Below, piece by piece: positions 7,214 to 28,748 of a stretch of DNA of 30,485 bases (within the stretch, counting starts at the first letter, position 1; each line of letters begins with the position of its first letter). Both the position numbers and the translations under genes were made by a program. The stretch is from a virus. The stretch covers positions 1-30,485 of IMG/VR virus record IMGVR_UViG_3300042401_001412. One strand, written 5' to 3'. The notes below the pieces were generated by a model. It saw only the letters and a list, made by a program, of their open reading frames with translations. It made no database searches and was not told where the DNA came from.

Positions 7214-7643
7214 TGTCTGAATTGTATATGATAAATATATCATCTTCACCCTGATAAGAAACAGGGATATTCTGATTTGTACCAACAACATTTACCAAGG
7301 TCTGAAATACAACGTTTTCTTCCGTTGTAGGTTGTAATGTATTTCCAGACATTTGTTGGTACACTTTTAGGAAATATTCACCAGGTATTAGGTGAACGTT
7401 CGTTTGACCAGTCATCGTATCACCCGTTAGTGATTCTGGAATATTGTCAAAAATCCCGATATTGAATAGGTCATAACCAGGTTTGTAATTTGTTGTTGGG
7501 GGGATTCTATATGGGATAAAATTGAAAATCTCACCCGATAGTTTATGTTCCATATTCCACATATAGTAGGGGTCTACCATTGTGGAATTACGAGAACAAG
7601 ATCCCGAGGCGTTTGTGTATTGGTTTTGATATAGGTATATCAT
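7206..7643 (-). CDS. Hypothetical virion-operon protein, 145 aa
   Basis: The product begins MIYLYQNQYTNASGS. It looks beta-rich. The C-terminal part (GEYFLKVYQQMSGNTLQP, about residues 88-105, then VVFQTLVNVVG) recalls a small conserved protein found near portal genes in Bacteroidetes phages, possibly a head-fibre base or connector. Its ATG shares one base with the stop of the preceding beta-propeller gene and its end overlaps the portal start. Role inferred from position only. Confidence 0.6.
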   Translation of the reverse strand: MIYLYQNQYTNASGSCSRNSTMVDPYYMWNMEHKLSGEIFNFIPYRIPPTTNYKPGYDLFNIGIFDNIPESLTGDTMTGQTNVHLIPGEYFLKVYQQMSGNTLQPTTEENVVFQTLVNVVGTNQNIPVSYQGEDDIFIIYNSDND

Positions 7644-9400
7644 TATAATGTAGAGTTATTTGTTCCGTCAGAATTAGCCCTAACAATATGGTTATAATTT
7701 TGGTTGTAATATGATGTAAATGAACCAACCATATAAACTTTAGCAGTACTTCCTACATGTACCGCTTGACGGGCAGTAGAAGCCGAACCATTTACCCCAA
7801 CATTATTTGCTATCCAAGTTGTATCAGGTGTAAGGGTTGAAAGTTCTGCTTTCACCCAATAAGTTGAAGCATTTTTGGACATATATAAACTATCATTTGG
7901 AACATCTATAAATAATGTACTTGGAATTACACCAGTTTCTATATTACCTGTTTGTATTTCCGTTCCTGATGAATTTATTTTGTGTACCTGTGCCGCTGTT
8001 CCACCCCTGAAAGTAATTGTATCATTTGTGAGACAGTAATAAACATTATTTACACTATCGTAGGCTATGTCTTGTACTGCACCAGAAAAACCACTACCGA
8101 ATAAACCAGTATCCAAACCTGTTGATGGGTTTATTTCTGTAATTCTATTTACGGTCGTTCCGTTGAAAGTAGTAAATGTACCAACAACAACATAATTTCC
8201 TGCGTTATTTATTATAATCTTATTTACAGGGTTATTGAACCCACTACCAAAAGTAATACTTGTATCTAATGTTCCGTCAATATTTAGTTTAGCAATTCTT
8301 GTTCTTGTAGAACCTTGATATGTTGTGAACGCACCAGTTATAACCACTTTATTATTATCAACCACTAAACTACTAACGGTTGAATTGGCTGTCGTTCCTG
8401 TCACAAATCCAGAGTAAATATCTCCTGTTGTTGTGTCTATTTTTACAATACGGGTTACACCTTGTGAACCATAATTTTGATTGAAAGTACCACCTAACCA
8501 TAAATAATTTCCGTCAAGACCCATACATTGTACCGAACCCGAAGTAACACCACCGAACCCTGAACTAAATGTTGGGTCAATAGTACCATCATTATTCATT
8601 TTGGTAATAAATCGTGATATACTACCGTTCCAAAAAGAAAATTGTCCACCTACAAAAATGCTGTCTGTATTACTATCGTAAAGTATTGCTTCCGCGGTAA
8701 GGTCAAAACCTTGACCCACCACAAATAAATTCAATGGGGAAGGTGTCACCGTTGGTGTAACCGAAGGAGTAGGGGTAATACCCAAAGTTCCTGTTGGTGT
8801 AGGTGTTGGTGTCGGTGTCCTCGTTGGGGTTTGTGAAGGTGCTGCTGGTGTAGATGTGGGTGCGGGAGGACAAGGTGATGACCACATCGCATTGAGGGAT
8901 AATGGATCAATAGGATTTTCTAAAATTGGGTAAGCAGTATCACCAATAAAAGTAGTACCAGTATAAATCCCTATATATGATATTGGTAGGGGTGAAGTCA
9001 TACCTGAATAGATGGGTCTATTAGAATCAACCATCCTAAAATAGACCCATCCATTATATTGTGTATCCCACGCAATGTAGTAATAATAAGATGGAAAAGT
9101 TGTACCTGATCCACCCCAAGCAGGATAATTATAACCACCAATCTGAACATTTCTTGTCCAAGCAGTATAATTCTCTGGTACAGAAGTATTATAACTATTA
9201 CAATAAACCGATGTCAAACTACCACCCGAATAATCATATAAACGATCAAGTACTGAACCACCAAAATTTGAAGTAGCATCAATTAATATAATCTGTTCGG
9301 GACATATTGGATTTTGAGTATAATTAGTTACAATATCCAATATCGCTCGGTTCTCACCAAGATAATCACTGAATTGTTTTCTTTGAAATATTCTACCCAT
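7643..9400 (-). CDS. Virion adhesin with Pro/Thr linker and delta-60-repeat beta-propeller, 585 aa
   Basis: Three parts are visible. Residues 1-170 are an N-terminal anchor (MGRIFQRKQFSDYLGEN...). About 178-222 are a Pro/Thr linker (TPTPTPTPTGT). The rest is a series of five or six blades with the delta-60/DUF5122 signature, for example VGGQFSFWNGSISRF, ITGAFTTYQGSTRTRIAKL with NIDGTLD, and VVGTFTTFNGTTVNRI. Such propellers are usually found in secreted bacterial surface proteins. The gene lies between the capsid genes and the portal, so it may be a head-attached fibre binding cell surfaces or glycans. The ATG at 9400 overlaps the previous stop; an upstream TTG at 9421 is less likely. Confidence 0.75.
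   Translation of the reverse strand: MGRIFQRKQFSDYLGENRAILDIVTNYTQNPICPEQIILIDATSNFGGSVLDRLYDYSGGSLTSVYCNSYNTSVPENYTAWTRNVQIGGYNYPAWGGSGTTFPSYYYYIAWDTQYNGWVYFRMVDSNRPIYSGMTSPLPISYIGIYTGTTFIGDTAYPILENPIDPLSLNAMWSSPCPPAPTSTPAAPSQTPTRTPTPTPTPTGTLGITPTPSVTPTVTPSPLNLFVVGQGFDLTAEAILYDSNTDSIFVGGQFSFWNGSISRFITKMNNDGTIDPTFSSGFGGVTSGSVQCMGLDGNYLWLGGTFNQNYGSQGVTRIVKIDTTTGDIYSGFVTGTTANSTVSSLVVDNNKVVITGAFTTYQGSTRTRIAKLNIDGTLDTSITFGSGFNNPVNKIIINNAGNYVVVGTFTTFNGTTVNRITEINPSTGLDTGLFGSGFSGAVQDIAYDSVNNVYYCLTNDTITFRGGTAAQVHKINSSGTEIQTGNIETGVIPSTLFIDVPNDSLYMSKNASTYWVKAELSTLTPDTTWIANNVGVNGSASTARQAVHVGSTAKVYMVGSFTSYYNQNYNHIVRANSDGTNNSTL
8737..8868 (-). repeat. Pro/Thr linker repeat
   Basis: In-frame repeats of ACxCCx codons encode TPTPTPT/SVTPT-type sequence between anchor and propeller. 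Related stretches occur at about 10233-10377, 21751-21825 and 22010-22108. Confidence 0.8.
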
Positions 9401-9617
9401 GTAATTGTTGTACTTCTTCAATCAATTTATCTACGTTGACGTTATGTCCACCAGGAAAAGGATGTTTTACCAACCTTCTAATATTTTGATTAGAATAAAA
9501 GTATTCTGTTAGTACATAAATAGTGTCATTACGGAATAACCACTCAATACCGATGATTTCAAAACCATCATAAAGTTGATCACCCCACACTACTTGTTTT
9601 TTTGTACGTAATCCCAT
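9393..9617 (-). CDS. Hypothetical protein, 74 aa
   Basis: The product begins MGLRTKKQVVWGDQLY, is beta-rich in the first 45 residues and ends with a short helix (VDKLIEEVQQLHG). It sits between two Pro/Thr-linked adhesin genes and ends overlapping the ATG of the next, so it is probably a small virion or assembly protein needed with them. No family recognised. Confidence 0.6.
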   Translation of the reverse strand: MGLRTKKQVVWGDQLYDGFEIIGIEWLFRNDTIYVLTEYFYSNQNIRRLVKHPFPGGHNVNVDKLIEEVQQLHG

Positions 9618-9618
9618 A

Positions 9619-10539
9619 TTACCTCCACGTTGCTATTTGCCATACATTACTACCCGAATTGGCTAAACCACTAACGGTAATTGTTCTTGTACCTGTGGTT
9701 GCTTGTGTAAAATCAGCACCCGAACCTTGCGAAACAGTACTATAACCTATATCAAATCTTTCTGTTGCGTTTGTCCAAGTAATGTTTTTACCAGAAGCAA
9801 TTGAATTCATCAAACCAGTAACACCAACACTACCTGCTGATAATGATGTGGTTGTTTCACTCAATGATGTTGTAGCAGCACTTCCCACACCAAATGTATA
9901 AGTTGGGGTTGATGAATTGTAATTTGTGATGGTAAATACAGATAAACCATAAGCGTTATTTGCTGTTGTGAAATTGACTTTCACTGTTCCCGTTGAACCT
10001 GTGACGACACGATAATAAATACCGTGTACTAAACGGTTACTACCACCGAAATTATAACTGTTCAGTATCGCTTGTGTAGCGACAACACCACCAATAGTTA
10101 CATTGTCAATAGTACCACTATTGTTGTTTTCACCTTGTACCATCACAACTATCAAACCTGGTGTTCCGAAGTTACAATTTACAATTTCATCAGTTCCTTC
10201 AACTACTTGTCTATATGAAATGGACGCAGCAGCGGGTGTGGAAGGTGATGGTGTTGGTGTACTTGTTGAAGTTGGGGTAGGTGTTGGTGTTCCTGTACCC
10301 GAAGGTGTCGGGGTTTGTGTGGGGGTAACCGAAGGTGATGGAGTTGGTGATGGTGTCACTTGTGGTGTCGTGACAGGTTCTTTATAGATGTTCACGGGTT
10401 GATTCAGTATGGGTCTCCATACGTTTCCCTTATCAATCTTTTCACCCAAAGGTTTGAGTAATTCTTCAATTGATGATTCTTTTTTTGGATAGACAGGTAT
10501 TCCATACGCAGGTCTATAATTTCTCCCGTTCCACTTCAT
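9619..10539 (-). CDS. Virion adhesin with Pro/Thr linker, 306 aa
   Basis: Residues 1-55 form a basic anchor (MKWNGRNYRPAYGIPVYP..., then LKPLGEKIDKGNVWRP). Residues about 56-102 are a Pro/Thr/Ser linker. The C-terminal 200 residues are a Gly/Ser/Thr-rich beta-sandwich with few charges, ending VWQIATWR. The anchor resembles small proteins coded beside capsid genes in related phages, so attachment to the head is plausible. It follows the terminator at 10579-10615, suggesting lower expression than the capsid genes upstream. Confidence 0.7.
   Translation of the reverse strand: MKWNGRNYRPAYGIPVYPKKESSIEELLKPLGEKIDKGNVWRPILNQPVNIYKEPVTTPQVTPSPTPSPSVTPTQTPTPSGTGTPTPTPTSTSTPTPSPSTPAAASISYRQVVEGTDEIVNCNFGTPGLIVVMVQGENNNSGTIDNVTIGGVVATQAILNSYNFGGSNRLVHGIYYRVVTGSTGTVKVNFTTANNAYGLSVFTITNYNSSTPTYTFGVGSAATTSLSETTTSLSAGSVGVTGLMNSIASGKNITWTNATERFDIGYSTVSQGSGADFTQATTGTRTITVSGLANSGSNVWQIATWR
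10233..10377 (-). repeat. Pro/Thr linker repeat
   Basis: In-frame TP/SP-rich repeats (for example TPTPTPTSTSTPTPSPS), similar at DNA level to 8737-8868, so the stretches could recombine. Confidence 0.8.
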
Positions 10540-12172: not shown

Positions 12173-12952
12173 TTATTTTTTTGAATTCTTAATCAATTCA
12201 AGTTTCCAATCTAACAAATCTGATTTGTTAGTAGAGAACTTTTTAATAACTGGTTCTCTGTCTGGTTGTTTCTTGAACTCTTCAAATTCTGTTTTGAATT
12301 CTTTAAATTCTGTTGTGAATTTTTTCAATTCGTTCATCATGGATAATAATGAACTCATCGTTTCTTTCATTTTTTTCATGTCTTCAAGTGATCCTTCACC
12401 TTGTTCATCAGGGTATTTTACCCCCGTGATTACGGATTCAGAATCAACTGTTAGGACGATTCCTGATTCGGTTGTGTGTTCTCCTTCGGGTGCAACCACA
12501 CGATCACCTTCTTCGGTAATTACGTATAGTTTTTCCCCTACTTGGAAGTCACCTTCACCATCAGTTTCAATCTTCGTTCCATCTGCAAGAGTTGCGGAAG
12601 TCATATTTTCTCTTTTCATCATGTCTTCTTTTTCATCTTCAATGTCAGTGATTGATTCTTCAACTACACTATCCTCCATCGTTTCCATCTTCTTTTCCAT
12701 TTTGAAGATTACAGAATCTTCACCAACTGTGATCAAGATACCCTCACGGGTTTCGTGAACACCACTCGGTGCTGGTTGTAAAACACTCTCCTTGACAATA
12801 TACAATTCGTCACCGATTTGTAACATATCTTCACCATCTTTGTTGTTAGTGATTTCCGTGTCGTCAACCAATTTTGTAACCATGAATTTTTCTGATTTCA
12901 ATTTTGGTGATAGTAAGTCAATAATCTTATTGATTGCGTCTGTTGGATTCAT
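12173..12952 (-). CDS. Scaffold-like protein with duplicated beta domain, 259 aa
   Basis: Two similar domains of about 55 residues are in tandem. The first has FMVTKLVDDTEI, IGDELYIVKE, PAPSGVHETREGILITV; the second has TSATLADGTKIETDG, VGEKLYVITEEG, APEGEHTTESGIVLTV. Between them is an acidic, Met-rich linker. The C-terminal 80 residues are a coiled coil (MKETMSSLLSMMNELKKF, then repeats of FKEF/FEEF) ending in a basic LELIKNSKK that could bind the coat protein. I know this layout from scaffolds of Bacteroidetes phages. The ATG at 12952 overlaps the protease stop (TGATG); a TTG one codon upstream is ignored. Confidence 0.75.
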   Translation of the reverse strand: MNPTDAINKIIDLLSPKLKSEKFMVTKLVDDTEITNNKDGEDMLQIGDELYIVKESVLQPAPSGVHETREGILITVGEDSVIFKMEKKMETMEDSVVEESITDIEDEKEDMMKRENMTSATLADGTKIETDGEGDFQVGEKLYVITEEGDRVVAPEGEHTTESGIVLTVDSESVITGVKYPDEQGEGSLEDMKKMKETMSSLLSMMNELKKFTTEFKEFKTEFEEFKKQPDREPVIKKFSTNKSDLLDWKLELIKNSKK

Positions 12953-15324
12953 CAAATTACTGATTTTATGATTTGGTTTATTTTCTCCAATAAATATTCA
13001 TCGGAATTTTGACGGGAAAAATTTAGTAGAAAATTACCCTCTACACTCGCACCACGGACTATACCAGGTTTGATTAGTTCTTCCCATACTTTATCCCCCT
13101 CTTCTGTTTCAAGGACTTTGTAACCCGCCATCCATGTTCCAAGGGGTATCTGTTCTTTGGTAAATCCTAATGAATAGGACTTATCGTTTTCAGATTCTAC
13201 GATCCACGATTCAACCATTACCAAGTCCTTGAATTTTGTTTCAGAGTGTTCATAGTTCGTTTCACGTAATCTTTGTTCTAACATAAACTTATTTCTGATT
13301 TTTTCAATTACTTCTGGTTTGAATCTGACGTAGTATCTTTCTTTTGTTATTTCATCATATCTTGGTATAAGAATATTAGGAATCATAAGTGGTGTGAATA
13401 TCATCCTCTTTTCATCATCCTTTTTGAATATTTCTTGTTTTACTTGACTCATATTTTGTTGTGATATGATGTACGCAACTTCACTTTTTCTTTTCGTTTC
13501 TGGTGAATAATAACCACTGTTCGGCATTCTCTTTGGGGGTATACCAGGTTGACCCTTCACCATCCCCTTATCGGTAATCTTATTACCTTTTACTTCTACT
13601 TCCTTCCACGCATGGATGCAATTCGGGCCACCTTTGTATAACCACTTGCTATATGGTTGTTTGTTGTGTCCGAACTCCAAGTTGTAGGATCTCATTGCGT
13701 CAATCGCGAATCTTCTGAAATAATAGTTTTCAATACTACTACAAAAATCCCTTGTGGGTTCTCCTGAATCAACACGGATATACTGATAATATTTCTGTAC
13801 TGTTCTGTAATTGAATCCAAGTAATTCTTCACGTGTTACACCCTGAACCAATTGTGGTACAAGACGTTCAAATTCTTCGTAATTCGTTTCACGTAATTCA
13901 CCCAATAATTTCAGTCCTTCAATTTCCTCTTTGGAATATTGGTCAATACTGAATTCTACTTCTATGTTTTCCTGTCCCCCGATCGTTTGTATTTCACTAT
14001 CTTTGACGATAAGGTCTAACTGTGTCCCCATTTCTGTTGGGTGTGTCTCACACGACATATAGACGATGTTTCCATTTTCATCTTCATGACTATGGTGTCC
14101 TGAACATCCAAGTTCTTTTTCACCATACATCTCTGCTTCCTCGGGTGTTGTGAATATAGGTAATCCATCCATATACCCCAACATCTGAAATTTGTGTCTT
14201 GTAGGACATCCACAACCTTTTGAATAGTTGGATGGTTGACCAGTGGGTAGTTGTAAATCTGTTGATCCTGACGGGTTGTAATTAGTGTAGGGTGGTAGAT
14301 CACCCGTCTCGTAGTCAAAACGAACTGCAGTCGTCCCTAATTCTTTTCTAACGAAGAAATCATCGTCATAGTGACGAACCAATCCCATCTTCTTAATCAA
14401 ATCAATCTTTTCAAACCTGTTTTGGTAATTTTGTATATTACTACCAGGTATTCTGTATTGGTTTGTTAGTTCAATTAATTCCTTTGGTGTTCTTCCTTGA
14501 ACAAAGATCGTAGGGATTGACCCACGTCTCATTTCATTTTCAAATAGATCACGTCCGTAATCGGTTTCTAATACTGACCAGTCAAACGATACACGGTCAG
14601 GACTGAACTTATCTTTCTTTTCCCAATATGAATAACAGACCGCAGTTCTTTGTTCTTGATCAGGGAACTCACTTGTCATTTGACTATCACCCATACAACG
14701 ACCGATAAAGTCGTTTTCTTTTTCACCTGAATTAGGATATACAAACTCCTGACGTGATTGTTCAATTGGAATACAATTCGGTACTTCTACACCGTTTTTG
14801 ATCTTCGTTCCATACGCGACATAACCCGATTGACATGGATTAGGTGTGATGAATTCTTGACGTTCTTTTTTGATCTGTTCTAATTTACGGGACGCCCACT
14901 CAATACCTGCATCTCCCCCCCACGCTAACCACGCGACATATCCTTTATCCTTCCAAGGTGTTCCTTCAAATTCAGGGTTTATTTTACTATTCTCTCTGTG
15001 ACGTTGAAATCCTGACATACGACCGATCGTATCTTCACTGATCTTTTCACCTGAACAAAGTTGGTTAGCACGTTGGAGACCCGTCAGTTCCATACCACTG
15101 ACTTCATCACGTCCGTGTTCTTCAATCCATCGTAGGACTTTACACGCGTTTTCTCTTGCTTCCTGTGGGTAATCATCATACGTTTCAAAGTCCGATTTTA
15201 TCGTGTCCCTTGAAAAGTATATCATCTCTTGTTCTATCGCGGGGTACTCCACAAAAGCAACCTCAAAAACACCAGTGTCACCAGTGATGTTTTCCTCAAT
15301 ATCTAAATCAATTATTCGTAACAT
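12952..15324 (-). CDS. Multidomain prohead protease (XkdF-like), 790 aa
   Basis: The C-terminal 150 residues match the XkdF-type prohead serine protease pattern: TPLMIPNILIPRYDE, YYVRFKPEVIEKIRNKFM, NYEHSE, VMVESWIVES, IPLGTWMAGYKV and GASVEGNFLL, with the His and Ser as likely catalytic residues. Ahead of it are several phage cassettes: a start (VFEVAFVEYPAIEQ) split off from the protease core; LQRANQLCSGEKIS...WGGDAGIEWASRKL (about 82-147); a Cys-containing SGYVAYGTKIKNGVEVPNCIP (166-186); RCMGDSQMTSEFPDQEQRTAVC (209-230); GLPIFTTPEEAEMY with CSGHHSH (about 382-410); and FCSS...WLYKGGPNCIHAWK. A usual protease is 200-300 residues, so this is two to three times longer and may be processed or contribute to the prohead core. 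It sits directly before the scaffold and capsid genes. Confidence 0.75.
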   Translation of the reverse strand: MLRIIDLDIEENITGDTGVFEVAFVEYPAIEQEMIYFSRDTIKSDFETYDDYPQEARENACKVLRWIEEHGRDEVSGMELTGLQRANQLCSGEKISEDTIGRMSGFQRHRENSKINPEFEGTPWKDKGYVAWLAWGGDAGIEWASRKLEQIKKERQEFITPNPCQSGYVAYGTKIKNGVEVPNCIPIEQSRQEFVYPNSGEKENDFIGRCMGDSQMTSEFPDQEQRTAVCYSYWEKKDKFSPDRVSFDWSVLETDYGRDLFENEMRRGSIPTIFVQGRTPKELIELTNQYRIPGSNIQNYQNRFEKIDLIKKMGLVRHYDDDFFVRKELGTTAVRFDYETGDLPPYTNYNPSGSTDLQLPTGQPSNYSKGCGCPTRHKFQMLGYMDGLPIFTTPEEAEMYGEKELGCSGHHSHEDENGNIVYMSCETHPTEMGTQLDLIVKDSEIQTIGGQENIEVEFSIDQYSKEEIEGLKLLGELRETNYEEFERLVPQLVQGVTREELLGFNYRTVQKYYQYIRVDSGEPTRDFCSSIENYYFRRFAIDAMRSYNLEFGHNKQPYSKWLYKGGPNCIHAWKEVEVKGNKITDKGMVKGQPGIPPKRMPNSGYYSPETKRKSEVAYIISQQNMSQVKQEIFKKDDEKRMIFTPLMIPNILIPRYDEITKERYYVRFKPEVIEKIRNKFMLEQRLRETNYEHSETKFKDLVMVESWIVESENDKSYSLGFTKEQIPLGTWMAGYKVLETEEGDKVWEELIKPGIVRGASVEGNFLLNFSRQNSDEYLLEKINQIIKSVI

Positions 15325-15336
15325 TTATAATAAGTA

Positions 15337-18300
15337 TTATAGGGATGAAAGTTGTTCCAGTCTACGGTTTATTCCCTGTGTTTTTGTTATTTCAGATTCC
15401 AAGACGTATGCACGGATCGGTTCACTACGTTGACGTGAGATCGCTTCCACGATACGTGAATCATCAAAGTTATTTGTAACCAAAGGTTTACCCCCGCCAC
15501 TGACATTTATTTGGTTTAATAAATCATTATACCTAACGGAACTGACACGATTTATAACACTCTCCCCACCTTCCAATTCTATTCCACCACCTTGGTATTT
15601 TACACCACCATATTCATGTGACGGACCGACAACTAATCCACCCTGTCCTCTACGGATCATACCACCACGTTGTAGGGATTGTAGTTGTGATAATTGTTTA
15701 CCAATCAACGCGGTCTGTGCTATACCTACACCCGCGATAATACCCGCAGCAATCTGTCCAATCACTGGTCCTGCGGTAAATGCTTTTGTAATTGATTCAG
15801 CGACGTTCGCAGTGGATTGTAGTAACGCAATTCTCAATTGAGTAATCGCTTGTTGTTTTTGTAACTGTTTTACTTTTTCTTGGTATATCTGTTCCGATTC
15901 CAAACGTTTCTGTTGTGCTTCCTTCGTATCACCAATGATTTTACTTTGTATTTCTTCATTACGACTCGCGAGTTGGTCAAATTGAAATTCGTAGTAATCA
16001 TTAGTCAATTGATTTATTGAATTAAGGACTGATTGAAATTCTTGGATACCGAATTTTATATCTTGAAGTGTATCTTGTCTTTTCTTTTTCTTCTTGTCTT
16101 CCGCTTTTTCTACTTCTTCCACTTCCTTTTTCAAGAACCCTTGTAGGATCAACAGTTGTTCTTCATAGGTGAATTTAGATATATCCACACCCTGTTCTTT
16201 TAGTTGGGTTTCAAGGTCAAGAATATCAACCGCAAATTTCCTTTGAGTGTCAAATCTTTTCGTGTTGATTTCATTTTCAAGGGTTTCTAAATCTTTTCTG
16301 TTACGTGAAACAGCGTTCAAATCTACATCAAATGTCTTTGTGAAATCTTCTATGTTTTCAATCAGAAATCCTGCTTTCGCGGTTTCGGATAATTCCTTCA
16401 ATTTGTTATTTAGTTCCACGACCTTCAAACCAACTTTACCGACACCTTCTTCAAACTTTACAATCTCCGCACCTGAATCAATAAGTTGTCTGAATACAAC
16501 CTTTCCCTGTTCTTCTAATTTCTTGGTCTGTTCCACTAACGCATCACCCTTCAAACCTTTCAGGACATCTTTGTTTAGATCCTTGAACGCTCGTAGAAAA
16601 TCTTGTTCTACTTCGTCTTTTAGTTTTTGTACGTTTAGTAACGCTTCCGCTCTTTGTTCGGGTGTTCTTTCAGTGAAAGGGTCTATGGTGATCTGTTCGT
16701 TTAGTAACGCGAGATCCACAACCAATTTCTCGTATTCCTTCAAATCAAATGGTGGTTGAACCTTCGCTTGACGAAACTGTTCAAGTGTAATGAATACCTT
16801 TTCATATCCGTCAATATACTTGGTAAATAAATCCTGTTGTGTAGGTGATAAAATATCCTTATTGATTTCCAACTGTGTTTTCCTGTAATTTTGTAAACCA
16901 GTGACGACATCTATAATGGACATTTCACCTTTGGATAATTGGTCAAAATATTTCTCAGCGGTCACTTGGGATTCATCAAACAACTGTCCTAACTTATCTT
17001 GTTGTGGAACAAGTTGTCCCAACACTTTTAGATACTTGTCTTCAAAGGTCAAAAACCTTTCACGAACGGATGTAAATTTTTCTACCTCTGAAATCTGTTT
17101 CGTTAGTTGGTCAATTACCTCCGCTTGTAAGGGGTTCAATTTACTGATTACACCCAAACGTTCGTTTTCAATTTTTAGTTGTTCCAAAAGAAGATTTGAT
17201 TCATTGACAAGTTCAGCGACCCTCGCGTCGTTTGCTGCTTTTTGTTCCGATCTTTGACGATCACGGAGTGCTTTCTCTTGGTCAAATAGTTCTTTTTGTT
17301 TTGTCTTTGAATCCAAGATTTTCTGTTGGTATTGTATGAATGCTTCCGCTTCTTGATCCAATGCTTCTTTATTTGCATCAGAAAGTTGGTTCTGTCTTTG
17401 AATTGTTTCAAATCTACGTTTTGCGAGTTCTGCTTCCTGATCCGCTAGACTTATTTCAGATTTACGGATCTGTTCCAATGCTTTCAATCGGTCTGCGAGT
17501 GATAGATTTTCATCATTGATTTTTAGTTTCGCGTCCGCGATCAATACGTTCTGTCTTGCACGTTCCTTGTTCAAATTCCTTGTAGAATCTGTTATGTCTT
17601 GAAGGATACCTTTTAGTCGTGCAGCTTCCTGTGCTTCGGAAACAATTTCCTGACCGATCCCCGATAGTGATCCACGGAAATCCTCAACAGCACCTTTTAG
17701 GTCAAGTGTGAATAGTTTACCAATCGCGGATGAGAATTTCAGGAATCTATCCCGAAGGACATCCACGACTGCACCTAACCCCGCGAAGATACGTTCCATT
17801 TGTTCTGCACCCGCCTTTGTAGAGGTGAACGCTTTATACAACAGGGTCAACGCACCTACGATCGCAGCGAGAAACGCGATAATAGGATTAGCGAGTAATA
17901 TTTTCATCGCTTTCGCGACACCACTAATCCCTTGTGCAAACTGACCAATCGGACCAGGTATTTCTTTCAATTCTTCACCTGTCTTTTCCAAGGATGATGA
18001 CATTTCATCTAATGGTTTCTTGATGGATTCAAACACTCGTCTTGCGGTATTACCAATCTTTTCCGTATCAATACCAAAAACTTTCAATGTCTGATTCGCA
18101 GCAGAAAATGCAGACCCTACGAGTTCACCCGCTTGTTTCAGGAGACCCATCTTTTGTGGTGCTTTCATATCGGAAGCAGTTTCTTCAAATCCCTTCAACG
18201 CAGCGTCCGCGAGGTTGATCTCTTCCGTCAATTGTTCAAACGCAAAACTACCTTCTTCTAATCCTTCTAATGTCTTCTTCGCACCATCTATGGATGACTT

Positions 18301-18372
18301 TAATTTGTTCACATCCGTGACCACTTCTGATACACCATTTAGTGTAATTTTCAATCCAATATTTTCACTCAT
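15337..18372 (-). CDS. Tail tape measure protein, 1011 aa
   Basis: The product begins MSENIGLKITLNGVSEVV and is the longest protein of the window, dominated by coiled coil (strong about 250-430 and 680-830). A hydrophobic segment lies at about 148-182 (LLANPIIAFLAAIVGALTLLYK), and another near the C-terminus (PVIGQIAAGIIAGVGIAQTALIG). It ends with the Gly-rich tail typical of the family (RGGMIRRGQGGLVVGPSHEYGG, GGGIELEGGESVINR) and RAYVLESEITKTQ. It sets tail length; by the usual 0.15 nm per residue rule, about 150 nm. It lies between the baseplate-like protein and the prohead protease. Confidence 0.9.
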   Translation of the reverse strand: MSENIGLKITLNGVSEVVTDVNKLKSSIDGAKKTLEGLEEGSFAFEQLTEEINLADAALKGFEETASDMKAPQKMGLLKQAGELVGSAFSAANQTLKVFGIDTEKIGNTARRVFESIKKPLDEMSSSLEKTGEELKEIPGPIGQFAQGISGVAKAMKILLANPIIAFLAAIVGALTLLYKAFTSTKAGAEQMERIFAGLGAVVDVLRDRFLKFSSAIGKLFTLDLKGAVEDFRGSLSGIGQEIVSEAQEAARLKGILQDITDSTRNLNKERARQNVLIADAKLKINDENLSLADRLKALEQIRKSEISLADQEAELAKRRFETIQRQNQLSDANKEALDQEAEAFIQYQQKILDSKTKQKELFDQEKALRDRQRSEQKAANDARVAELVNESNLLLEQLKIENERLGVISKLNPLQAEVIDQLTKQISEVEKFTSVRERFLTFEDKYLKVLGQLVPQQDKLGQLFDESQVTAEKYFDQLSKGEMSIIDVVTGLQNYRKTQLEINKDILSPTQQDLFTKYIDGYEKVFITLEQFRQAKVQPPFDLKEYEKLVVDLALLNEQITIDPFTERTPEQRAEALLNVQKLKDEVEQDFLRAFKDLNKDVLKGLKGDALVEQTKKLEEQGKVVFRQLIDSGAEIVKFEEGVGKVGLKVVELNNKLKELSETAKAGFLIENIEDFTKTFDVDLNAVSRNRKDLETLENEINTKRFDTQRKFAVDILDLETQLKEQGVDISKFTYEEQLLILQGFLKKEVEEVEKAEDKKKKKRQDTLQDIKFGIQEFQSVLNSINQLTNDYYEFQFDQLASRNEEIQSKIIGDTKEAQQKRLESEQIYQEKVKQLQKQQAITQLRIALLQSTANVAESITKAFTAGPVIGQIAAGIIAGVGIAQTALIGKQLSQLQSLQRGGMIRRGQGGLVVGPSHEYGGVKYQGGGIELEGGESVINRVSSVRYNDLLNQINVSGGGKPLVTNNFDDSRIVEAISRQRSEPIRAYVLESEITKTQGINRRLEQLSSL

Positions 18373-21488: not shown

Positions 21489-23012
21489 TTAGCAAGTTCC
21501 GTTATCTGTTATTTCACCATCACTTTGTACTTGGAAGTAGTATCGTGTTCCTACTCCACCAACCGTCAACGCGATGTACTGACCACCACCATTTGTTGGT
21601 GATGATGGATACGTGTCGTAAAGGTAATCACCTGTTGTTAGTGATGATAATGATTTATTTGATTGATATCCTCTGACAGTAGAGTAATTAGAACACGCTA
21701 ACGCTCCGTCGGGTTGATCAGGTGTTGTCCTACCCAAATAGTTGAATACCGATTGTGATGGTGTCGGTGTTGGTGTCTTTGTTCTTGTAGGTGTTGGTGT
21801 AGGTGTTGGTGATGGTATACATGAACCCCCTGTTATAATATTGATATCAGGATCACTAAACGGTGCACTACATGAACAAATTTCATATATTACACCACAA
21901 CTTAGTTTGATGGTTTGTATTGTTCCGAAGTTACAGTTCGTAAACGATACTGACCCTAACGACTCACACGAACCTGTATATTGTAATTGATATGTAGTAC
22001 ACGTTGGACAAATAGGTGTTGACGATGGTGTCGGTGTAGGTGTTGGTGTTATACTTCCACGTGTCGGAGATGGCGTTGGTGTGGGGGATGGTTGAATTGG
22101 TGTTGTTGTACCAGTGAATTTACCGAATAACTGAACTGTATATTGAACACAGTTTGATGGGAAGTTGGGTATGTTCTCTGGTCCTGCTCCGACATACAAG
22201 GTATTCCAATCTGAATCTTGATATGGATCAATTAGGAATAACTGTGGGTAGACCTGATTACAGGTTGTTCTTGGACCACCACCATTTGTTGTTATATTCT
22301 CATAGGTAGTTGCGGATATCAAAACACCTTGATCATTATAGAAGTTGTATTTGACGTAATATGGTTCAGATAGTGTATTACCTGTTGAAGATGGATTTAG
22401 ATAGTAATTCGTGAATCCAAGTGTATACCACTCATTAGATTGTACTTCACGTATCCTTGGTGAGTTTGTTAGGAATAATCCTGATGTTGTAGGGTTTGTC
22501 CCCGTAGGTGTTCCTGATAAAACAAATGGGTCTATGTCAAACGATTGTTGGGTTGCACGTCCGTTCACACCCATCGTTGACTTGAAGGTCTTGAAAGAAT
22601 TTGACTGAAATTCAGGATCACCAACCGTGTTTCCGATACCAGTAAAACCTGTAACGGTTTCTAATGGATCGTTTGAATATTCATAACCACATTTTACGTA
22701 GTATGTAATGGTTTCGTTTTCTGATGGTCTTGAAAATGGAAATGTCTGATGTGTGTAGATCGGTGTAGTATTCCAATATGATACAACGTTGTTATCACAA
22801 TAGTTTTCCAAGACCTGTTGTAGGTCTACAATACCCAATCCGTATGGGTTAGGTGTACACTTCCCACCGAAGACATACAGATCGTTTACATATAACTCGT
22901 ATATGAACCTATATTTGAATTTTCCCGTCGTATCTCCCGACAAGGTGAAGTACAGATCATCCGATAAAACTGGTTGAAACTGTGAAGGGTTTTTTGTTAT
23001 CTGTAAACTCAT
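21489..23012 (-). CDS. Tail adhesin with two Pro/Thr linkers, 507 aa
   Basis: Residues 1-300 look like the first half of a Bacteroidetes-phage tail protein (SLQITKNPSQFQPVLSDDLYF, FIYELYVNDLYVFGGKCTPNPYGLGIVD, FLTNSPRIREVQSNEWYTLGF). Then follow linker 1 (about 302-336), a Cys-rich module of about 65 residues (CPTCTTYQLQYTGSCES, NCNFGT, CSCSAPF), linker 2 (about 402-425) and a final 80-residue module (GRTTPDQPDGALACSNYST...YFQVQSDGEITDNGTC). Modular ends of this kind probably bind the host surface. Its ATG overlaps the stop of the gp10-like gene by four bases. Confidence 0.7.
   Translation of the reverse strand: MSLQITKNPSQFQPVLSDDLYFTLSGDTTGKFKYRFIYELYVNDLYVFGGKCTPNPYGLGIVDLQQVLENYCDNNVVSYWNTTPIYTHQTFPFSRPSENETITYYVKCGYEYSNDPLETVTGFTGIGNTVGDPEFQSNSFKTFKSTMGVNGRATQQSFDIDPFVLSGTPTGTNPTTSGLFLTNSPRIREVQSNEWYTLGFTNYYLNPSSTGNTLSEPYYVKYNFYNDQGVLISATTYENITTNGGGPRTTCNQVYPQLFLIDPYQDSDWNTLYVGAGPENIPNFPSNCVQYTVQLFGKFTGTTTPIQPSPTPTPSPTRGSITPTPTPTPSSTPICPTCTTYQLQYTGSCESLGSVSFTNCNFGTIQTIKLSCGVIYEICSCSAPFSDPDINIITGGSCIPSPTPTPTPTRTKTPTPTPSQSVFNYLGRTTPDQPDGALACSNYSTVRGYQSNKSLSSLTTGDYLYDTYPSSPTNGGGQYIALTVGGVGTRYYFQVQSDGEITDNGTC
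21751..21825 (-). repeat. Pro/Thr linker repeat (linker 2)
   Basis: In-frame PTPTPTPTRTKTPTPTP repeat joining two terminal modules of the 507-residue tail adhesin. Confidence 0.75.
22010..22108 (-). repeat. Pro/Thr linker repeat (linker 1)
   Basis: In-frame PSPTPTPSPT/ITPTPTPTPSS repeat joining the tail-binding part to the Cys-rich module. Confidence 0.75.
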
Positions 23013-23640: not shown

Positions 23641-26241
23641 TTAGGAAATTCTTATTTTCATATCCCCGTTGTTGTGGTATATCTGTCCAAGAACAACACC
23701 ACCCGCTGCTGCTGCTCCATCGTTAGGGAAGTCAAGTGCTGCGTAATTGAAGACCACCAAGTTTTCCACAAAAGTAGCTGTTGACCTTGTAGATGTTCTA
23801 CCACTACATCCCAACATAACTGCTTCTGTATGACCACTAATGGTTGAACCACTTGATGCGATAATTGTGGAACGGTCAGCATTAGAAATAACACTACAAT
23901 AATCACTACCTATGATTTCTGATGTATCAGTAGAACCTGAAATGGTGTTATATGTTCCAAATAGAATTCCATTATTTATACCATTTCTAATTTGGTTATT
24001 ATTACCACCCATAATTTGTGAGTATTGTGCTTCGTGTAGTGTTGAAGCATCAGCACCATAGATACCCATATTTTGGTCATTGGTTCCATCACCTGTAATC
24101 GTGCAATCATTACCACCTATAATAACATTATTATCACTTTGTGATGCGGTGTTTCCTACTTGTATTTCACTTCCATAAGAAGCGATAATCGCACTTTGGT
24201 TTGTGACACCTGAAATATAACATTGGTTAGCACCAATAATAACACTTCCGTTCAACGATGTACTACTCTGTGTGATGTATGAAGTAGTTGCCGCAGCAAT
24301 CATATTTCTAGCAGAACCTGTTGTGAAATTCATATCACAATCTTCAGCACCTATCATAATATTTTCGTGGGTTTCATCCCCCGCAGTAATTGTACAAACT
24401 TGTGAACCAATCATAACATTGTGTTTTGTATCACCCAATGTCATATCATTACCTTCACCGAACAACATACCATTTTGTCGTGATGTTTTACCAGCGGAAA
24501 CAGTTATTGAACCATTATCACAACCCATAATCATATTTCTGAAACTTTGGTTTCCATTTATATCACTACCCGTTGATGCTAATATACCTGACATTTGACC
24601 TGGTGCGTTGTGTGAATTGTTATAACCACCAATTAGGAACGCAAACCTTTGGTCTGCGGTGAACCCACCAGCCTCACTTGAAAGAATTGTATTTTTGAAC
24701 CCTGATTGAATACTAACACCGTTTGATGAACCAATCAACAATTCTGACCCTGTAGCAGGTATTGTACAAGAACTTGAACCAATTATAACTTGTCGTTCCC
24801 CACCATTTGTCATATTACTATTATTGGATGAATATATCCCTTGAAAAAAACCTCTTTCAATATAGGAGTTTTGTGAACCAGCAATAATACCAGCACCTTG
24901 TTCACCACCTTCACGGATAGATGAACCGATAGAACCTATTATACCAAATGCTCTACCACTATCCAAGTCAATATAACTATTGACCGAACCCAAAATAGCC
25001 ATCTGTCCTTTATCATCACCAGGTGAAGCAGAATAATCAGTATAAGAACTTTTACTTCCCCCAATAAACGATGTCCAAGTTGTATCAGTAATGGTTGAAC
25101 CTGTATTACCAAAAAGGTCTTCTACAAATATTTTTTGGTTTTGTGTTTGTGCGTTATTGAGTTTTGGGATATAATCGTTTTGGGCGTAATCATAAACTTG
25201 TGTAAAACCCGAAATAGGTAAAGCAACACCTGAACTACCACTCGTTCCCGAACTACCTGATGAACCGCTTGTTCCTGATGAACCTGAACTACCACTTGTT
25301 CCACTTGAACCCGAACTACCACTTGTTCCCGAACTACCTGATGAACCGCTTGTTCCTGATGAACCTGAACTACCACTTGAACCTGAACTACCACTTGTTC
25401 CTGAAACACCACTACTGCCGCTTGTACCTGATGAACCACTTGAACCACTGGTTCCTGAACTACCACTTGAACCTGTCCCCCCGCTTGTTCCTGATGAACC
25501 TGAACTACCACTTGTTCCCGAACTACCTGATGAACCACTTGATCCTGATGAACCTGACGTTCCTGAACTACCACTTGAACCACTACTTCCACTTGAACCT
25601 GAACTACCACTTGTTCCCGATGAACCTGTCAATCCCTGAAATACAAAGTTCCAAACGGAATAAGTACCAGTAGATGTTGAAAAGTTCTGAACTATTACTA
25701 CTTGTATTTCAGTTGGTGAAAAATCTTCAACTTCCATTATGTAATAACCTGTCATACCAACTGCGGTCACCTTAAATGTTTGTCCTGTAAGTAATGAAAT
25801 ATTACCATTTAGTGTTAGTGCGTTATAAACCAAGGATGTTCCAATAGTCCAACCAGTATTATTTTTTACATCACTTGAACTAATTTCAGTTGGAAAAGTA
25901 AGACCCGAAGTACCACTCGTTCCCGAACTACCAGAAGATCCTGACGTTCCGTTGATTCCTGATGTTCCCGAAGTTCCTGAACTACCTGATGATCCTGAAC
26001 TACCAGAAGACCCCGATGATCCACTCGTACCTGATGATCCTGAACTACCAGAAGAACCCGATGATCCACTCGTACCTGATGATCCACTTGATCCTGACGT
26101 TCCTGACGTTCCTGATGCACCGATAAAATTTTCCCTCTGTATCTTAAAGGTTTCGGTTTGTGTTGAGTTATCTACCACAAGGAAAGTCCCCGTTGGACTT
26201 CCTACAAATAGTGGTAATTCTGATATTTTTTTATTAGCCAT
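23641..26241 (-). CDS. Long fibre with collagen-like repeats and beta-roll head, 866 aa
   Basis: Residues 1-40 are an anchor (MANKKISELPLFVGSPTGTF, VVDNSTQTETFKIQRE). About 41-113 and 204-339 are Gly-x-y triplets of the SGTSGSSG kind, interrupted by a globular domain of 90 residues. From about 390 the protein consists of short beta-roll repeats such as IIGGNDCTITG, IMGGNNNQIRNG and IIGSDYCSVIS, similar to the head region of trimeric adhesins. It ends NYAALDFPNDGAAAAGGVVLGQIYHNNGDMKIRIS-like with small residues. A trimeric receptor-binding fibre is likely. It lies between the small tail gene and the gp10-like gene. Confidence 0.8.
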   Translation of the reverse strand: MANKKISELPLFVGSPTGTFLVVDNSTQTETFKIQRENFIGASGTSGTSGSSGSSGTSGSSGSSGSSGSSGTSGSSGSSGSSGSSGSSGTSGTSGINGTSGSSGSSGTSGTSGLTFPTEISSSDVKNNTGWTIGTSLVYNALTLNGNISLLTGQTFKVTAVGMTGYYIMEVEDFSPTEIQVVIVQNFSTSTGTYSVWNFVFQGLTGSSGTSGSSGSSGSSGSSGSSGTSGSSGSSGSSGSSGTSGSSGSSGTSGGTGSSGSSGTSGSSGSSGTSGSSGVSGTSGSSGSSGSSGSSGTSGSSGSSGTSGSSGSSGTSGSSGSSGTSGSSGSSGTSGSSGVALPISGFTQVYDYAQNDYIPKLNNAQTQNQKIFVEDLFGNTGSTITDTTWTSFIGGSKSSYTDYSASPGDDKGQMAILGSVNSYIDLDSGRAFGIIGSIGSSIREGGEQGAGIIAGSQNSYIERGFFQGIYSSNNSNMTNGGERQVIIGSSSCTIPATGSELLIGSSNGVSIQSGFKNTILSSEAGGFTADQRFAFLIGGYNNSHNAPGQMSGILASTGSDINGNQSFRNMIMGCDNGSITVSAGKTSRQNGMLFGEGNDMTLGDTKHNVMIGSQVCTITAGDETHENIMIGAEDCDMNFTTGSARNMIAAATTSYITQSSTSLNGSVIIGANQCYISGVTNQSAIIASYGSEIQVGNTASQSDNNVIIGGNDCTITGDGTNDQNMGIYGADASTLHEAQYSQIMGGNNNQIRNGINNGILFGTYNTISGSTDTSEIIGSDYCSVISNADRSTIIASSGSTISGHTEAVMLGCSGRTSTRSTATFVENLVVFNYAALDFPNDGAAAAGGVVLGQIYHNNGDMKIRIS
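25227..25632 (-). repeat. Collagen-like (Gly-Ser-Ser/Gly-Thr-Ser) coding repeat, long array
   Basis: About 135 codons of in-frame 9- and 15-base units encoding SGTSGSSGSSG. The near-identical units make this a site of slippage and recombination, and a weak point of short-read assembly. Confidence 0.85.
25900..26121 (-). repeat. Collagen-like coding repeat, short array
   Basis: About 73 codons of the same triplet type, following the fibre anchor directly. Confidence 0.85.
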
Positions 26242-26246
26242 AAATG

Positions 26247-26795
26247 TTAGTTGTTGTATGTGTTATATTCCAATTGGAAATTGTCTTCTGTTGTCCATAT
26301 ATCAAGGTCTTCAAACAATAGAAAGAAATCTTCATAGTAATCACACGCGTTGATGTCCTCAAAGACAATGATGTTAGCGGTTATTTGTACCCCCCCTACG
26401 TGGTCGGACATGCGTTCAACGAAGGGTAATCCTGTGACACCGATTTGGATGTCCATAAAATCATATAATGCGGGGATTTGTCTCATACCTCTTTTGATAA
26501 ATGAAATGAAACGTCTCGCTTCAAGGGACATTTGGGATACGACATCTACGTCGTTGTACACTGTCGTGTCCAAAATATCCGTAAACATAATCGCGAGTGA
26601 ATAGGTTGTCGTATTTTCATCATACGTGATGGATTGTGGTGTCACAAACATATAGGGATACTGAACAGTACTACCCGAAGTATTCTTTCCAAAGTCAACC
26701 AAGTTTCCCCACCCGTACGTATTGAGTACAGGTGAATATTCCACATACTTTTGGAATAACTTGATGATATGTTTATACGTAATATAATGTTCCAT
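26247..26795 (-). CDS. Tail terminator/completion-like protein, 182 aa
   Basis: The product begins MEHYITYKHIIKLFQ. It has a helical start, then a beta section (VQYPYMFVTPQSITY, TTTYSLAIMFTDIL), a helix (VSQMSLEARRFISFIKRGM), and an acidic, aromatic C-terminus. Size and the strand-helix order resemble tail terminator proteins, which cap the tail tube. The ATG at 26795 overlaps the stop of the frameshifted chaperone ORF (TGATG), showing that the shifted frame is the coding one. Family assignment is weak. Confidence 0.55.
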   Translation of the reverse strand: MEHYITYKHIIKLFQKYVEYSPVLNTYGWGNLVDFGKNTSGSTVQYPYMFVTPQSITYDENTTTYSLAIMFTDILDTTVYNDVDVVSQMSLEARRFISFIKRGMRQIPALYDFMDIQIGVTGLPFVERMSDHVGGVQITANIIVFEDINACDYYEDFFLLFEDLDIWTTEDNFQLEYNTYNN

Positions 26796-27600
26796 CAAAC
26801 GTATTTTGTTTCATTTTTTATCTTTTTCAGTTCATTTTGTTCTTTGACTCTACGGTCTTTCAAAATAGAACAGGTATTCAATACTAAATATACGTTCATT
26901 TGTTCTATCTGTTGGAATTTAGTAAGGTCTTCTTGACAGATGGATAGAGTAAGTTCAAAATAAAACCGAGAGGTAGTTTCCTTTGCAGGAATCGTGGTAG
27001 TTTCTTCCACATCCTCTGTAACCACATCATCCTTTTCATCATCAAGTTCAAAGAACGACTTGTATCGGTAGTGTATAACTTGACGACTTGAAAAAAAAAA
27101 TTGGCAGAGTTGAACCATATTTGAACGGGTATTTCTTTGAATATGACCATACGATCCAATACTTTCTTGGGATCGTATTCTTCTATTGTATACCCCTTGT
27201 CTGATTTACTTGTAATGGGTCTGTAAAGGATAGATAGGACATGATGGATGTTTTGATCAATGTCTTCTGATGATAGGATTTCAAAATCTATCCATGCACC
27301 CCAAGTGAGTTTTGACCAATCTTTTTCCAACCCATATTCTATTCCGTTATGGGTAAATGTTTCCACTAACTTATTACCCTTTTTTTGAACAAACTGACTG
27401 GTTATGTATTCCAATACAAATCCTACTTGATCAGGTGGGAATTTCATTATTTCATTGGGGTCTTCTTCTAATATCAATCCAAGTAAATTTGATGGATGTG
27501 AATCATAGTGATCCTTTCGTTTTATGTATTGTTGATATACCCCAACTGTAAGTTGTTCGGGTAGTTGTCTTGTTTTGTTTCCTATTTGTAGTTCAATCAT
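26795..27600 (-). CDS. Tail assembly chaperone, -1 frameshift product, 268 aa (0-frame product 231 aa, ends 26905)
   Basis: The 0-frame product begins MIELQIGNKTRQLPEQLTVG. Its N-terminal 90 residues (strand, LTVGVYQQYIKRKD, then NEIMKFPPDQVGFVLEYI) look like tail assembly chaperones of Bacteroidetes phages. At codons 167-170 (AAT TTT TTT TTT, a run of ten T) a -1 slip joins the next frame. The shifted tail is acidic and protein-like (ELDDEKDDVVTEDVEE..., KDRRVKEQNELKKIKNE), while the unshifted 61-residue tail is basic and ill-composed (LMMKRMMWLQRMWKKL). The shifted frame ends on the start of the next gene. As with lambda G/GT, both products may be made; they would bind the tape measure. A one-base sequencing error in the run is the alternative. 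Confidence 0.7.
27091..27102 (-). other. Slippery run for -1 frameshift (T10)
   Basis: On the coding strand AATTTTTTTTTTC is read as AAT-TTT-TTT-TTT-C in frame 0 and as T-TTT-TCA after slipping back one base. No clear stimulatory structure was sought beyond it; a T run this long may also slip during transcription. Confidence 0.65.
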
Positions 27601-28748
27601 TATACAATTGTAAATTTCTTTGGTTTATTTCCGACCTTCATTTCTAACACATATCGTATTGGGTCAATACAGTGATTATGATTGTCAATGGGTTCATCAA
27701 GGTTTTTTAGGTTTTTATCTTGTTTCCAAACATATTGATTTAATTCCCCGATCAGATTGACACTACGATTTGTTACGTAGAAGTCATGACGTTTTATCAG
27801 GTCAATTCCGTGTAGGATCGTGTTCTTCATAACTGGTTTACAGTTGATACCTGAACGTCTCATTTCCTCAATCGCTTGGGGTTGTGATGAATCCGCAATA
27901 AAATCATCCTTCAAATTGATACCCAAATCTTTGATCTTGTAAATAAAGTCAGGAATCGTTATATGTTTCATGTACAATAATTCATCACAGTATATCTGTT
28001 CACCGAGTTTGTAGACCCCTATCAGTGTCTGTGCGTCGTGGTAACCGTAGTCAATCCCATAACCAAGTAATTTTGATTCCTTTGGTATGTCATCAACATA
28101 CTTCTGATGGTTGAATACAACACGTGTCGGTACACCCTTCTGACCTAATCCAAACACTCTCCATAGGTTTTGATCCCTGTCTTTAAGTTTTTCAATTTCT
28201 TTGATCTGAACGTCAGATAAAAATGGGTTTGACTTGTAGGTCACTATCTTGTAGAAAACGTCGTCCTGACCTTCTAAATCGTATATCCAACTCTCCCACA
28301 GTGATGGGTTCAGGTCTATAACTATTCTGTCTACTGTACGTAGAATAAGTTGGATGTATTCTTGTTCGTTGATTTCGGTCGCTTCGTTGATAAAGAGGTA
28401 ATCTCTTTTACGACCTCTGATCTTTTCTTCTGAATCCAATGAAAACCACTCTATTGTATTTGAACCGAGTTCATAATACCCGTCAACTTGATGCCATTTA
28501 TTTTCATCATACACACCAAAACTACGTAGGATTTCTTTCAGGTCTTTGAGTACTGATCCCTTCAACGATGGTAGTGTTTTCCTGACGATAGAGAGGGTTT
28601 TACCTTCTTCTTGAAGTAATCTATAAACCCAATAGATTAGGATGTTATACGTCTTGGATGCACGTGACGATCCTTGAAAAACACATATACGTTTATCTGT
28701 CGTGATCAGGTCTTCAAATACAACTGTTGTTGATATTTTGATATTCAT
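27600..28748 (-). CDS. terL: Terminase large subunit, 382 aa
   Basis: ATPase: an adapted Walker A, QGSSRASKT (about 25-33), and Walker B, DYLFINE (116-122), with the ATPase coupling region after it (TEINEQEYIQLILR). Nuclease of the RNase H type: GIDYGYHD (231-238), DDFIADSSQP (281-290) and HCIDPIRY (359-366), giving three acidic metal ligands. It cuts concatemeric DNA and pumps it into proheads through the portal. The length is on the short side for the family. Its start overlaps a 23-codon ORF, and its stop overlaps the chaperone start by one base. Confidence 0.93.
   Translation of the reverse strand: MNIKISTTVVFEDLITTDKRICVFQGSSRASKTYNILIYWVYRLLQEEGKTLSIVRKTLPSLKGSVLKDLKEILRSFGVYDENKWHQVDGYYELGSNTIEWFSLDSEEKIRGRKRDYLFINEATEINEQEYIQLILRTVDRIVIDLNPSLWESWIYDLEGQDDVFYKIVTYKSNPFLSDVQIKEIEKLKDRDQNLWRVFGLGQKGVPTRVVFNHQKYVDDIPKESKLLGYGIDYGYHDAQTLIGVYKLGEQIYCDELLYMKHITIPDFIYKIKDLGINLKDDFIADSSQPQAIEEMRRSGINCKPVMKNTILHGIDLIKRHDFYVTNRSVNLIGELNQYVWKQDKNLKNLDEPIDNHNHCIDPIRYVLEMKVGNKPKKFTIV

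Follow-up and report, generated by a model that had tools for sequence, protein, structure and literature searches.

The gene that follows the terminase in the 30,485-nucleotide stretch of viral DNA analysed here (referred to as the window) most probably gives rise to two proteins, G and GT, by programmed −1 recoding at a run of ten T residues. We put the probability of this reading at roughly 0.88, a figure that leaves aside any mechanism based on the polymerase. Most copies would stop in frame 0 and yield G, a protein of 231 amino acids with a dual-coded, basic and helical tail, and a minority would go on in the −1 frame to yield GT, of 268 amino acids; we infer both the synthesis of GT and its proportion to G. 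By analogy with G/GT of phage lambda, the two products would be the short and the long version of a tail assembly chaperone; the former would coat the tape measure protein, and the tail tube subunits would be brought in by the T domain of the latter. The change of frame could come about in transcription, if RNA polymerase slips on the run and inserts an additional U, or in translation, if tandem tRNAs slip on U UUU UUU.

The T run and its conservation

The positions of the features are listed in Table 1. The plus strand of the window contains an A10 stretch, and the coding strand reads GCC AAT TTT TTT TTT CAA GTC, i.e., exactly ten T. When we rechecked the sequence and its frames, the run, the coordinates and the product sizes (231 and 268 residues) agreed with those of an earlier note on this DNA, that had proposed a frameshift at this point from the sequence alone. 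As it had also described, the −1 frame goes from the run to a TGA at 26797-26795 that forms part of a TGATG overlapping the ATG of the next gene. On the other hand, its statement that the run had no standard heptamer partner was wrong, as T_TTT_TTT is present in phase within the T10 run and likewise within the run of at least nine T of every relative.

Table 1. Features of the recoded gene and its immediate neighbours in the window.
Feature	Position	Strand	Description and evidence
Terminase large subunit	27600..28748	−	Directly upstream of the G/GT gene; Nonlabens phage P12024S has the same order
G, 0-frame product, 231 aa	26905..27600	−	ATG at 27600, stop 26905-26907; relatives by tblastn and profile; phrog_32199 E 1.5e-4; model pLDDT 84.7
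T10 run, putative slip site	27091..27100	−	In-phase T TTT TTT inside; at least 9 T in all frameshift-type relatives
T part, −1 frame extension giving, with G, the 268-aa GT	26795..27100	−	Acidic linker, then helical domain; TGATG end; conserved T profile; hhalign 97.4% to the C-terminal domain of the fusion
Dual-coded overlap: basic 0-frame tail of G, T in the −1 frame	26905..27090	−	About 60 codons; open length, amino acid identity against null, helix in model
Next gene, about 182 aa	26247..26795	−	Start overlaps the T stop (TGATG); neighbour conserved in Nonlabens phages too; from its position, possibly tail-terminator-like

Conservation in relatives had been suggested as a check of the frameshift. 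With the protein and small alignments as queries, and with search patterns that excluded the T run, we collected 101 distinct relatives of the window branch, which formed 46 clusters at 80% identity (first domain) and went down to 17–22% identity. All 101 had an uninterrupted run of at least nine T at the junction and needed a −1 shift, and none was fused in frame. The run was T9 in 22 clusters and T10 in 24, with T12 in one member. A deeper branch of about 49 relatives, reached by way of the cultured marine Nonlabens phages P12024S/L that belong to it, had T9, once T10, and always the −1 arrangement, although the pattern used there (FFYHLGND) overlaps the slip site, so that amino acid conservation at this place is partly by construction and only codon choice is independent. 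The 0/−1 arrangement with at least nine T is therefore kept in 101 plus about 49 relatives. Elsewhere in the same loci A/T runs of nine or more were found only 3 times in 216 kb, and the conservation of the T run at the junction is far above chance. In the searches, tblastn of the window protein alone against cultured phages gave no match, two relatives (L012 and L006) being needed as queries, and a search of genome contigs with the family query A1 found no relative.

Long homopolymers are generally error-prone and hypermutable. A run miscounted in sequencing or assembly, which the earlier note had kept in mind, or a phase-variable run subject to replication slippage would hide a gene that is really a single open frame. 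However, either of these should show up as members with the gene in frame, and all of the ca. 150 distinct relatives, which come from independent assemblies and from cultured phages, are out of frame, so the arrangement at the T run is real. The 0-frame tail is, besides, conserved in its own right, and we give practically no credit to this explanation.

A sister branch of 83 loci (L151, L152, L154 and L226-L305) provides a natural control for the frameshift reading. In 83 of 83 both domains were found in one open frame, fused at the junction, and there was no T run of 8 or more. A separate short overlapping gene (G) was located upstream of the fusion in 82 of these loci, the remaining one being cut by the end of the contig. 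In profile comparisons the G of the window matched the N-terminal domain of the fusion at 97.5% and the −1 part (T) its C-terminal domain at 97.4%, the two alignments meeting at the position of the T run. The upstream short gene in turn matched both the window G and the N-terminal domain of the fusion at 92–93%, and by BLASTP it was similar to the fusion gene of its own branch (E 2e-6). The matches of G and T to two domains that join at the T run indicate that the family would have two ways of obtaining both protein lengths, one recoded gene or two genes, and nothing else argues as strongly for the −1 fusion as the intended product. Together with the presence of the run in every frameshift-type relative, this arrangement speaks for the programmed −1 shift that had been proposed. 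In one locus of this branch (L227, 3475-8750) the short and the fused genes share one strand, and the opposite strand carries genes that look structural, a long coiled-coil gene among them.

The annotation of gp38 and gp39 of P12024S as two proteins in GenBank would fit a different situation, in which translation of G stops in frame 0 and reinitiation then yields T as a protein of its own, with no fusion. However, the conserved −1 reading begins at the run, upstream of the annotated internal Met, and the sister branch physically fuses both domains at that same point. Two separate proteins would also leave the conservation of the T run without explanation, and we consider them very improbable.

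The 0-frame tail had been described as basic and odd. It is indeed basic, but several observations do not agree with its being odd. It remains open for 61 codons in the window gene, compared with a mean of 11 in the null, and for 55 codons compared with an average of 24 in a null generated from the −1 protein and codon usage. The amino acid identity of the tail between relatives was 34%, with 22% in a null from the −1 protein alone (250 pairs). In the predicted structure of G (pLDDT 84.7) the helix 159-199 crosses the junction into the tail, the length of which ranges from about 40 to 86 codons across the family. The open length, the amino acid conservation and the modelled helix indicate that the tail is a part of G and that both frames are used. 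Judging from these sequence comparisons and from the model, the tail is dual-coded and conserved beyond chance.

Protein identity and gene neighbourhood

The protein is probably a divergent tail assembly chaperone. The identity proposed in the earlier note was supported indirectly, by the G/GT layout, the tail-gene neighbours and the fold, and found no significant counterpart among sequence families. When the model of G was compared with 350,542 PDB chains, the top match in Foldseek was the HK97 tail assembly chaperone 2OB9, a weak one (E 0.33), and 2OB9 was again first in VIA-align, also weakly (Z 3.3, 74 residues, 4.2 Å). This match, though weak, owes nothing to the frameshift argument and agrees with it. 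Phage_TAC_7 appeared repeatedly in the sister branch with weak matches (E about 0.1). Searches of Pfam, PHROG and PDB sequences retrieved no significant chaperone or named-tail-function family, and the model of the T domain (pLDDT 69) had no meaningful match in PDB. The only named relative of G was gp38 of Nonlabens phage P12024S (phrog_32199, with no assigned function), which matched the window G at E 1.5e-4 and the relatives L012 and L006 at 3.4e-8 and 1.4e-6, respectively. Among the papers searched, none described this gene family.

The negative result among sequence families, and the place of the gene in the window, where it comes after the terminase, could also be taken to mean that the recoding is real but affects a phage protein of a different kind, likewise made in two lengths. 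Tail assembly chaperones are typically encoded beside the tape measure gene, a position that is not strictly defining. In the window the G/GT gene is not adjacent to it, and a tape-measure-like coiled-coil gene (15337-18372) is found several genes off. The G/GT layout and the tail-gene neighbours argue against a protein of another kind, as do the two programs with 2OB9 as best fold match and the Phage_TAC_7 matches of the sister branch, and we regard it as unlikely.

The structural genes of the window (6140-28748, minus strand) have an unusual order, with the terminase, G/GT and tail genes first, the long coiled-coil gene in the middle, and the protease, coat-like and portal genes last. Some of their products, all encoded on the minus strand, have peculiar sequences. 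Two genes downstream of the frameshift gene there is an 866-aa protein (23641-26241) with very long collagen-like repeats of the type GTSGSSGSSG. Three structural proteins (7643-9421, 9619-10539 and 21489-23012) have in common low-complexity linkers of the PTPTPTPS type; the same kind of linker was found in the neighbour gene of two relatives (L004 and L005), together with an extra C-terminal domain not present in the window copy. In a 790-aa protein (12952-15324), a long N-terminal region precedes an XkdF-like serine protease domain (Peptidase_S78_2, E 1.1e-12) that is confined to the C-terminus (residues 630-764).

RNA polymerase or ribosome

The ribosome slipping on U UUU UUU and the polymerase adding one U would both yield the −1 product. 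We lean towards RNA polymerase slippage adding one U as the more likely frame-changing step, because the runs are never shorter than nine, because no stimulatory structure was found and because of published slippage thresholds. Transcriptional realignment would be recognized by a conserved A/T homopolymer of about 8–9 or more at the junction, and the minimum was nine in all relatives. The RNA polymerase of Escherichia coli slips on seven or more T, and T7/T8 give ~5–10% of insertion product (PMC6260861), while in bacterial genomes selection against slippage commonly sets in at nine A/T (PMC1088944). Lambda requires about one GT per 30 G (PMC5009743). Downstream of the run there was no excess of RNA structure (mean z −0.32 ± 0.15, compared with −0.18 ± 0.15 in a control region), and upstream of it no consistent Shine-Dalgarno (SD) stimulator motif was detected, SD-like sequences being present in 10 of the 46 clusters.

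What the length of the run indicates depends on the slip site that is assumed. If any T TTT TTN sufficed, the presence of at least nine T in 46 of 46 clusters would have a probability of ~10^-11.7, with T TTT TTY only 10^-2.1, and with a strict T TTT TTT log10 P = 0, in which case the amino acids in both frames force at least nine T and length is uninformative; all these values treat the 46 related clusters as independent. Run length alone as a proof of polymerase slippage was dropped, since the enumeration showed that CTG for TTG at codon 3 is not free in both frames. On the tree, the run has moved against the frame at least 21 times, and its length was never below nine. If left and right flanks were combined at random, about 11 of 58 rows would have runs shorter than nine, but there are only 3–5 phylogenetically independent pairs, too few for significance, so that this compensation between flanks supports polymerase slippage, not decisively.

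A ribosomal −1 shift is the route in most described tail-chaperone genes. Acting alone, it would consist here of tandem tRNA-Phe slippage on U UUU UUU (or U UUU UUG), the long run arising incidentally from the Phe/Leu codons of the two frames. The in-phase T_TTT_TTT found in every run of nine or more would serve for it, and a strict need for this heptamer would make run length uninformative, as mentioned above. Ribosomal shifting is established in lambda G/GT (PMC5009743) and has been measured at 6–7% in HK97-like chaperone genes (PMC3711429). However, none of the ca. 150 relatives combined a run shorter than nine with T TTT TTC, TTG or another XXXYYYZ site, the ribosome would have to act with neither a stimulatory structure nor a consistent SD, and the offset of the run moves yet its total length stays at nine or more. 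We take the ribosome alone to be a serious but less probable explanation, and polymerase and ribosomal slippage working together to be rather improbable. For polymerase slippage as part of the complete picture we see even chances, i.e., that a widespread and undescribed phage family, aquatic and in part at least flavobacterial, would regulate the G:GT ratio of the tail chaperone through slippage of RNA polymerase on nine or more T, and not ribosomally, with a dual-coded 0-frame tail and with a sister lineage that gave up recoding for two genes.

Comparison with known systems

To our knowledge, frameshifting in tail-chaperone genes has been described almost wholly as ribosomal. The window family resembles gpG/gpGT of lambda in having a short and a long product with a common N-terminal part, a −1 shift close to where the first frame ends, a location among tail genes and a long form that would be minor by design. 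It differs in several aspects. No sequence homology between both was detected, the slip site of the lambda type is a GGGAAAG-type heptamer whereas all members of the window family have at least nine T, the 0-frame tail of ~40–86 codons is dual-coded, and the window gene adjoins the terminase instead of directly preceding the tape measure gene. With the HK97 chaperone 2OB9 the likeness is that of the weak top fold match of the G model, and there is no sequence similarity.

Another related case is that of the Nonlabens (Persicivirga) phages P12024S/L, in which gp38 and gp39 are homologous to G and T, with a T9 run, the same −1 arrangement and the same place after terL; the gene order terL, G/GT and neighbour is common to the window and P12024S. 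The differences are an identity of 28% and an annotation as two hypothetical proteins, in which the frameshift went unremarked. In P12024S (NC_018271, 7977-8668 in our locus L156) gp38 (phrog_32199) and gp39 (phrog_38404, the T piece annotated from an internal Met), both listed with no function, would be the two parts of a single gene recoded at the T9 run. Being cultured, these phages make the question of slippage directly testable. Among Flavobacterium phages, laban has one continuous frame at the matching gene and 6H several, a relation too distant to be used. In 6H (L306, 10047-10939) the pieces of the gene are in several different frames and no slip site is evident, which could be due to sequencing errors, and an unannotated frame of 105 codons follows gp10.

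Programmed transcriptional realignment at A/T runs takes place in Thermus dnaX (A9), IS elements and Shigella mxiE. The window family has in common with them an uninterrupted run of at least nine A/T at the frame junction that is kept between relatives, and differs in that it concerns a structural-assembly gene of a phage, for which slippage is a candidate put forward from the sequence alone. A phage family in which all members keep an unbroken run of at least nine T is a good candidate, and a strong one, for reaching through RNA polymerase slippage the same regulatory end that is reached in other phages by the ribosome. By analogy, the system would work like lambda G/GT, and what appears to be new is the family itself, the homopolymer as slip site, the dual-coded tail and the sister lineage with two genes.
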